A DNA stretch of 64,000 nucleotides from a bacterium. Its GTDB lineage: Bacteria > Patescibacteriota > Minisyncoccia > Phycocordibacterales > Phycocordibacteraceae. The notes beneath the pieces are model-generated. The model was given only the letters and a program-made list of their open reading frames with translations, had not been told where the DNA came from and did not search any database. Made by a program: the position numbers and the translations under genes. The first letter of the stretch is position 1. Every line of letters starts with the position of its first letter. The DNA is taken from the NCBI GenBank assembly GCA_030651285.1, contig JAUSCN010000012.1, positions 1 through 64,000 on the forward strand, given 5' to 3'. Below are positions 60,594 through 62,651 of the stretch, piece by piece.

Positions 60594-60887
60594 ATGAAAT
60601 CAATCAAAGACATTCTTCCCGATATTCAGAAAAAGGCAGCAGAAGCGCCAAAGGGAAAGAAGCGTCAGACCGAGCGTGGAGAACTCATGCGCTTCTTCCT
60701 GCGCCACCTTAATCACGCCCGCACACACGACGGCCTCGCACCCATGACCATGGCACACCTCGGTGTCGTGCTTGAACAAATTCCAACCGCAGACCTCTAC
60801 TACCTGAAGAGCGTATGCAGTCAAGCAAAGAATTTCAGCAAGAAATTCTGGTGGGAACTAGACCCCACGAAGCACCCGTCTCCTTGA
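60594..60887 (+). CDS. hypothetical protein
   Basis: 97-aa ORF directly after murA. Confidence 0.6.
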   Translation: MKSIKDILPDIQKKAAEAPKGKKRQTERGELMRFFLRHLNHARTHDGLAPMTMAHLGVVLEQIPTADLYYLKSVCSQAKNFSKKFWWELDPTKHPSP

Positions 60888-60908: not shown

Positions 60909-62255
60909 ATGAAAGAGATCGTGCAAGATGGTGCGCCCGTACTGCGTAAAGTCGCAGAACTAGTCCCCGAAGAACTCTTCGGGACGCCTGCGCTTGCGCG
61001 CATGATTAAAGATATGGAGGAGGCTCTTGATAAGGAGCTCGATGGTGTCGCGCTCGCAGCACCGCAAATCGATCTCTCATACCAAATATTTATCGTGCGC
61101 AAAGACCGCACACTCCCACCACTTCCAAAAGGAACGCAAAACACTCCCTCATCTTCGGAAACAGACATATATATCAATCCGAAAATTGTGCGAACTTCTC
61201 GCAAGCGCGCAAAAAGAGATGAGGGCTGTCTCTCCGTGCGCGGTGTCTACGGCACCACTGATAGGCACGAGCGCGTCACCATCAAAGCGCGTCGACCAGA
61301 CGGTTCCCAGGTCGAGCGCGGTGCAGGTGGCCTCATGGCACAGATATTCGAACACGAAATCGACCACCTCAATGGCATTCTTTTCATTGACCACGCTACA
61401 CAGCTCGTACAGGTTGCGCGCGGTTCAGAACGCCGCTTCGCCTACTTCGGCACACCGAAAGTCTCGAGCGACACGCTTTCCATCCTTATTGAGAACGGCT
61501 TCATTCCTGCAGTCGTCATCACCTCGCCAGATGCGCCGCGCGGCCGCGGCCTCACGCTCACGCCCTCAGAAACGAAGTCTGTAGCGCTTGAGCACGACAT
61601 TCCTGTCCTGACCCCGGAAAAACTCGATGCCGATGCAATTGCCGCAATCCACGCATACGAGTGTGACTATGCGCTCGTCGTCGCCTACGGAAAGATATTT
61701 CCCGAGACACTTATTGAATCTTTCCCGCACGGAGTCCTGAACGTGCACTATTCCCTGCTTCCGAAATACCGCGGAGCAACACCAATGGAAGCTGCGCTCC
61801 TTGCTGGCGACCCGACGACCGGCGTGACCATTCAGAAGATGGTGAAAGAGCTCGACGCAGGAGACATCATCGCCCAAAAAGAAACGAAGATAGAGTCAGA
61901 TGAAACCGCTCGCGAACTACGCCCAAGACTCATCGAGATGGGTGCTGGACTACTCGTTGCGACGCTTCCAGACTATCTGAGCGACGCCATCACCCCAGTT
62001 CCGCAAGACCACTCAAAAGCGTCGCGCTCCCGCAAGACCAAGAAAGAGGAAGGTCAACTTTCCCTTGATGCATCAGCACTCGAGAATTGGAATAAATACC
62101 GCGCATACGCTGATTCTATCGGCACGTATTTCTTCGAAAACGGAAAACGGATCAAGATAACTTCGGCGGCACTCAAGAACGGAAACTTCGTCATCGAACG
62201 AGTCATCCCCGAAGGCAAGAAAGAAATGTCGTACAGCGACTTCTCCAAAAAATAA
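60909..62255 (+). CDS. fused peptide deformylase - methionyl-tRNA formyltransferase
   Basis: PDF motifs GVALAAPQ, EGCLS, HEIDH; then FAYFGTP, VLNVHYSLLPKYRGATP, ELDAGDIIAQ of Fmt in one uninterrupted ORF. Confidence 0.93.
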   Translation: MKEIVQDGAPVLRKVAELVPEELFGTPALARMIKDMEEALDKELDGVALAAPQIDLSYQIFIVRKDRTLPPLPKGTQNTPSSSETDIYINPKIVRTSRKRAKRDEGCLSVRGVYGTTDRHERVTIKARRPDGSQVERGAGGLMAQIFEHEIDHLNGILFIDHATQLVQVARGSERRFAYFGTPKVSSDTLSILIENGFIPAVVITSPDAPRGRGLTLTPSETKSVALEHDIPVLTPEKLDADAIAAIHAYECDYALVVAYGKIFPETLIESFPHGVLNVHYSLLPKYRGATPMEAALLAGDPTTGVTIQKMVKELDAGDIIAQKETKIESDETARELRPRLIEMGAGLLVATLPDYLSDAITPVPQDHSKASRSRKTKKEEGQLSLDASALENWNKYRAYADSIGTYFFENGKRIKITSAALKNGNFVIERVIPEGKKEMSYSDFSKK

Positions 62256-62256
62256 A

Positions 62257-62281
62257 GCCCGCATTGTGCGGGCTTTATTTT
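62257..62281. terminator. terminator
   Basis: ATAAAGCCCGCattgtGCGGGCTTTAT. Confidence 0.85.
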
Positions 62282-62288
62282 TCAATGC

Positions 62289-62651
62289 TTAGCGTCCGAA
62301 ACGGAGGAGACTCTTCAGTGCTGCACCGCCCCGCCGGAAGAGTTTCCGTGCGCGCCCGCGCGAGCGGCGTATCTCCGCTTCAAGATCGCCGCGTACCCTA
62401 TCTGCCGCCGTCGCCGCCGTCGGCTTCACTACTTCAGCGCGATATACTTCATTATCAACCTTGATACGCGCAACAAGACGACAAGGTTCCGCTGAACGCC
62501 CTTCTGCCGGAGCATTCTCGATCTCGATTTCAAGCAATGCTGTTTCAGCCTTATCTCCGAGAAGGCGCAGCGGCGCCGATAACTTTTCCTTAAGAAGAGC
62601 TTCTGTCTCGGGAGTGAGGTTATATCTCGTCGCTCTAATGGTGATGTTCAT
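62289..62651 (-). CDS. ribosome hibernation factor (HPF/RaiA-like)
   Basis: MNITIRATRYNLTPETEALLKEKLSAPLRLL..., Arg-rich C-terminus. Confidence 0.85.
   Translation of the reverse strand: MNITIRATRYNLTPETEALLKEKLSAPLRLLGDKAETALLEIEIENAPAEGRSAEPCRLVARIKVDNEVYRAEVVKPTAATAADRVRGDLEAEIRRSRGRARKLFRRGGAALKSLLRFGR

Follow-up and report, generated by a model that had tools for sequence, protein, structure and literature searches.

Within the window, meaning the whole 64,000-nt stretch analysed here, we identified a single gene in which the coding sequences of peptide deformylase (PDF, def) and methionyl-tRNA formyltransferase (FMT, fmt) are joined (Table 1). The ORF list and our reading of the sequence agree on one uninterrupted frame of 448 codons with no internal stop. 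A preliminary description had proposed such a single-ORF fusion, and matches of both halves in Pfam and NCBIfam bear this out. In Pfam, PF01327 matched the first 166 residues with an E-value of 4e-39 and 134.1 bits against a cut-off of 22.8, followed by PF00551 over residues 181–352 (E 4.5e-36) and PF02911 over residues 377–424 (E 3e-6). In NCBIfam, the PDF model TIGR00079 scored 107.6 bits (curated cut-off 103.95) and the fmt equivalog TIGR00460 scored 206.6 bits (curated cut-off 201.5). Just upstream lies a 97-codon ORF without a Pfam match (60,594–60,887, plus strand). A 120-aa ORF on the minus strand (62,289–62,651) gave an S30AE (ribosome-hibernation) match below threshold (17.9 bits versus 23.7).

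Table 1 Features of the def-fmt fusion gene, in window coordinates.
Feature	Position	Strand	Basis
def-fmt fusion gene, 448 aa, ATG to TAA, one frame	60909..62255	+	ORF list; Pfam, NCBIfam
Peptide deformylase half, residues 1–168	60909..61412	+	PF01327 match, residues 1–166; NCBIfam
PDF motif I GVALAAPQ, third residue Ala	61044..61067	+	Alignment
PDF motif II EGCLS, metal ligand Cys107	61221..61235	+	Alignment
PDF motif III HEIDHLNG; metal ligands His149 and His153, catalytic Glu150	61353..61376	+	Alignment
Junction, 66 nt (22 codons), motif III Gly to FMT YFGTP motif	61377..61442	+	Spacing comparison
Methionyl-tRNA formyltransferase half, residues 177–448	61437..62252	+	PF00551 at 61449–61964; NCBIfam
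FMT catalytic motif NVHYSLLPKYRGATP (Asn278, His280)	61740..61784	+	Alignment
FMT motif ELDAGD, catalytic Asp316	61848..61865	+	Alignment
Partial PF02911 (FMT C-terminal domain), profile positions 2–49 of 100	62037..62180	+	Pfam
Likely intrinsic terminator directly past the stop codon, GCCCGCA-TTG-TGCGGGC then T-rich run	62257..62282	+	Read by eye, unscored

The catalytic Asn, His and Asp of FMT and its HxSLLPxxRG signature are all found in the window protein, in NVHYSLLPKYRG and ELDAGD. In the PDF half, motif I reads GVALAAPQ and does not satisfy the classical GxGxAAxQ. Across 23 aligned fusions, the PDF residues Q53, C107, H149, E150 and H153 and the FMT residues H280 and D316 are invariant, while N278 is kept in at least 90%. 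Two traits that the preliminary description had attached to the fusion turned out to belong to the wider family. All 91 loci of the family, fused or unfused, carry the motif I alanine, which also turned up in a few further Patescibacteria (L261, L271, L296 and L156). The reduced C-terminal part of FMT is equally short in unfused relatives, whose FMTs are mostly 265–290 residues long, compared with 267–280 residues in the fused ones.

An AlphaFold model of the fusion protein had a mean pLDDT of 90.8 over both domains. The pTM was 0.61, so the placement of the domains relative to each other is unsure. Complete solved structures of FMT could be aligned with the FMT half of the model across about 300 columns, with a TMt of about 0.8.

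The host draft genome comprises 855,539 bases in 30 contigs, with an estimated completeness of 96.7% and a contamination of 5.3%. In a profile search of this whole draft genome, PF01327 and PF00551 each matched once, and both matches were the fusion ORF; separate def or fmt copies, which the preliminary description had suggested looking for, were not detected elsewhere in it. The genome also encodes FolD and a methionine aminopeptidase. FolD supplies formyl-tetrahydrofolate, and methionine aminopeptidase carries out the step after deformylation. Among 45 tRNA genes there is a single tRNA with a CAT anticodon, which is elongator-like (seen in the overlapping loci L305 and L320). An initiator tRNA-fMet was not found in the draft assembly by pattern and ARAGORN searches; its gene may be absent from the assembly or interrupted. 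The closest named relatives of the fusion protein come from Candidatus Paceibacterota metagenome-assembled genomes, at 70–75% identity, which places this ultra-small bacterium within the Patescibacteria.

To place the fusion among its relatives, we used a family sample of 99 genomes. A PDF match was present in 93 of them, and 93 likewise had a match to the formyltransferase core. We read 91 def-fmt loci, 90 from relatives and the one in the window. The two genes were fused in one frame in 13 loci and separate in 78, always in the order def to fmt. In 68 of the 78 separate pairs, fmt is read in the +1 frame with respect to def, and the typical overlaps of these pairs measure 17 nt (n = 28), 11 nt (n = 15), 8 nt (n = 12) or 20 nt (n = 6). 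Such conserved +1-frame overlaps in most unfused genomes (among the family's def-fmt loci, L063 to L152) suggest translational coupling of the two genes. Of the 13 genomes of the genus with a fusion, 11 have no PDF besides the fused one. The other two carry a second, separate PDF (G049, C3:17666–18127, locus L035; G067, C57:1106–1570, locus L033). These separate PDFs outscore the fused PDF on the profile, which resembles the case of Exiguobacterium discussed below.

The junction is short. The most frequent end point of a separate PDF in the genus is 19 residues past the motif III glycine, and a separate FMT starts most frequently 8 residues ahead of the FGTP motif. In the window gene these two ends meet within the 22 codons between the motifs, confirming the earlier remark that there is almost no linker. 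Since a separate PDF ends and a separate FMT begins near the join point, the fusion costs neither fold any part. A junction of 21–22 residues is common to the clade of five genomes that includes the window. A missed frameshift at this site, raised as a concern in the preliminary description, left no signal when we compared relatives, and the same in-frame junction is present in four sister genomes.

The distance from the motif III glycine to FGTP is most commonly 67 nt in the separate loci (21 loci); six of the 13 fused loci, the window included, measure 66 nt and another two 63 nt. Removing a net single base from the overlap is therefore enough to convert one arrangement into the other. In this genus, def and fmt are usually adjacent and overlap in different frames. 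We infer that, most simply, a net deletion of one base there shifted fmt into the reading frame of def and removed the def stop codon, and that the fmt start codon would have been lost along with the fusion. With the join point falling where a separate PDF ends and a separate FMT begins, no linker would have been needed.

We built a genus tree from the concatenated domains, leaving out the junction. The window gene groups with four fused loci (L090, L094, L126 and L144; support 99/90). Synonymous sites within this clade are saturated or nearly so. For comparisons with a finite dS, dN/dS ranged from 0.08 to 0.16 for PDF and from 0.04 to 0.13 for the FMT N-terminal domain, values that are rough at such divergence; in the FMT C-terminal part dN/dS reached 0.27 in one pair. 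Saturated synonymous divergence together with low dN/dS thus indicates that the fusion is old and that both halves are constrained, as judged from these codon comparisons. A chance origin of the fused ORF is excluded, because two full domains share one frame, are under purifying selection and are linked by a junction conserved in sister genomes.

On the genus tree the fused label needs five changes, and starred branches alone force three of them. The fused genomes are clustered in clades, and none of 500 shuffles gave so low a count. A single fused clade in the genus was rejected by the AU test (p = 6.6e-5) and appeared in 0% of the bootstrap trees. Because fused groups sit among unfused ones, this pattern is most simply read as several gains; some losses are possible as well, and counting alone cannot separate gains from losses.

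We extended the search to a phylum sample of 240 Patescibacteria genomes, of which 212 had a PDF match. Among the matches listed, at least ten were full def-fmt fusions in other families of Patescibacteria, with PDF frames of 442–481 aa, some of them in single-contig genomes (for example G159 and G261). Together with 12 in the genus, this gives at least 22 further fusions in Patescibacteria besides that in the window. Among the loci of other bacteria retrieved by similarity to the window protein, we found no fusion outside the genus. The combined tree, which has 119 rows, requires nine changes of the fused label, five of them forced by starred branches, counts that are rough given a quickly built tree with several long branches.

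The PDF matches in this sample showed further peculiarities. No PDF match was present in 28 of the 240 genomes, 20 of which are of good quality, and several of the PDF-less genomes share one family code, f23. Deformylation may have been lost in these lineages. One in-frame TGA lies in each of the PDF matches of G143 (C14:79115–79573) and G291 (C13:985–1419), possibly a recoded TGA; recoding of TGA is known in some Patescibacteria. An in-frame TAA was present in the PDF matches of G239, G215, G299 and G183.

Taking these results together, we consider it probable (roughly 0.85) that the gene encodes a single bifunctional def-fmt protein, that it arose by a one-base deletion and that its main effect would be a fixed 1:1 expression of the two enzymes. 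Judged by its conserved residues, the window fusion protein probably has both activities. The FMT half would formylate the initiator Met-tRNA with 10-formyl-tetrahydrofolate, and the PDF half would deformylate the N-termini of nascent chains at the ribosome. Substrate channelling appears unlikely, as the two reactions would stand at opposite ends of the formyl group's life: it would be implausible because the formyl group stays on the chain through initiation and early elongation between the two steps. Fixed 1:1 expression is the main expected effect, and would be certain if the product stays whole. We take a near-neutral origin of the fusion as the default, because overlapping genes make fusion mutationally easy.

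The alternative that fares best is that tethering was selected, either as a ribosome-associated unit or for strict 1:1 stoichiometry, and did not merely follow near-neutrally from the overlap. The recurrence of the fused state, with at least five label changes in the genus and nine in the wider sample, speaks for it, as does the persistence of fused clades across saturated synonymous divergence. However, 78 of the 91 loci are unfused, the overlap makes fusion a one-step event so that mutational opportunity alone can produce recurrence, and substrates are not handed directly from one enzyme to the other. We therefore regard selected tethering as unlikely. The broader proposal, that Patescibacteria repeatedly fuse their sole PDF and sole FMT because coupling the formylation cycle benefits reduced cells, seems to us more doubtful still.

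It is considerably less probable that the fused mRNA yields separate enzymes, through internal initiation at the fmt half or post-translational cleavage. An in-frame ATG is kept at the junction in the fused relatives L087, L111, L120 and L127, where internal initiation would be conceivable, but neither the window gene nor 7 of the 12 other fused genes of the genus have an in-frame ATG, GTG or TTG there, and an unsystematic look at the junction showed no evident processing site.

We consider it very improbable that one half is catalytically dead and serves as a structural partner only, for instance PDF through its motif I alanine. The departure from the classical motif that would favour this is shared by every locus of the family, in most of whose genomes it is found in the single PDF, and 24.5% of reference genomes lack any PDF exactly matching the classical motifs (PMC12690207). 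The metal ligands and the catalytic Glu are retained, and purifying selection acts on both halves. Least credible of all is an assembly or sequencing error in which a one-base indel makes two overlapping genes look fused: the commonest separate and fused spacings do differ by exactly one base and the assemblies are of metagenome type, but we rejected such a frameshift on the sister genomes and the clade structure, the thirteen fused genomes of the genus falling into clades that no shuffle matched, the window clade having neither the fmt ATG nor the def stop while its adjoining codons have diverged in the new frame, and further fusions lying in other families, some on single contigs.

The def-fmt fusion is a recurrent state within a whole phylum, mostly as sole copy, and the pathway concerned is essential and drug-targeted. 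One genus contains both genomes with fused and genomes with overlapping genes, and the likely one-base step between the two can be seen there, which makes this a tractable case of fusion between overlapping neighbours. Annotations of fused def/fmt genes in such genomes need not be errors. Should coupling be advantageous, fused and unfused sister species would amount to a natural experiment on the reason for formylating initiator Met in bacteria.

We compared the gene with known systems. Like the PDFs described by PF01327 and TIGR00079, the window PDF has intact motifs II and III, a near-intact motif I and a score above cut-off; unlike them, it carries the genus-wide alanine in place of the third-position glycine of motif I, and its C-terminus leads straight into FMT. 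Exact conservation of the motifs is not needed for PDF activity, and an updated motif demands no full GxG (PMC12690207). The FMT half shares with TIGR00460 enzymes (PDB 1fmt/2fmt and 4iqf) the catalytic N-H-D, the SLLPxxRG motif and the overall fold, but it has no free N-terminus, and its C-terminal domain is shortened, with half of the domain matched by PF02911, as in its unfused relatives. The E. coli-type def-fmt operon, as presented in the source that cites it (Meinnel and Blanquet 1993, cited in PMC12690207), consists of the same adjacent genes of the same pathway but makes separate proteins, whereas the window gene encodes one. While def and fmt are co-localised in 58% of bacterial species (PMC12690207), their adjacency is nearly universal in the genus studied here, usually with overlap.

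The nearest precedent is the fusion in Exiguobacterium, likewise def and fmt in one ORF, which a survey of 5,042 reference genomes found in four, each of them from Exiguobacterium (PMC12690207, Mol Biol Evol 2025, msaf311). An E. coli delta-def-fmt mutant regained growth with the E. alkaliphilum fusion gene, and Exiguobacterium genomes with the fusion always carry a second intact PDF (PMC12690207). In contrast to this backup in a member of the Bacillales, the window fusion is the only PDF and the only FMT in its draft genome. Its host belongs to a different phylum, and the fusion in Patescibacteria therefore presumably arose independently of that in Exiguobacterium. Among openly licensed PMC papers we found no report of a def-fmt fusion in Patescibacteria. 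The def-fmt fusion as such is already known; what is added here is its sole-copy state and its recurrence across a phylum.
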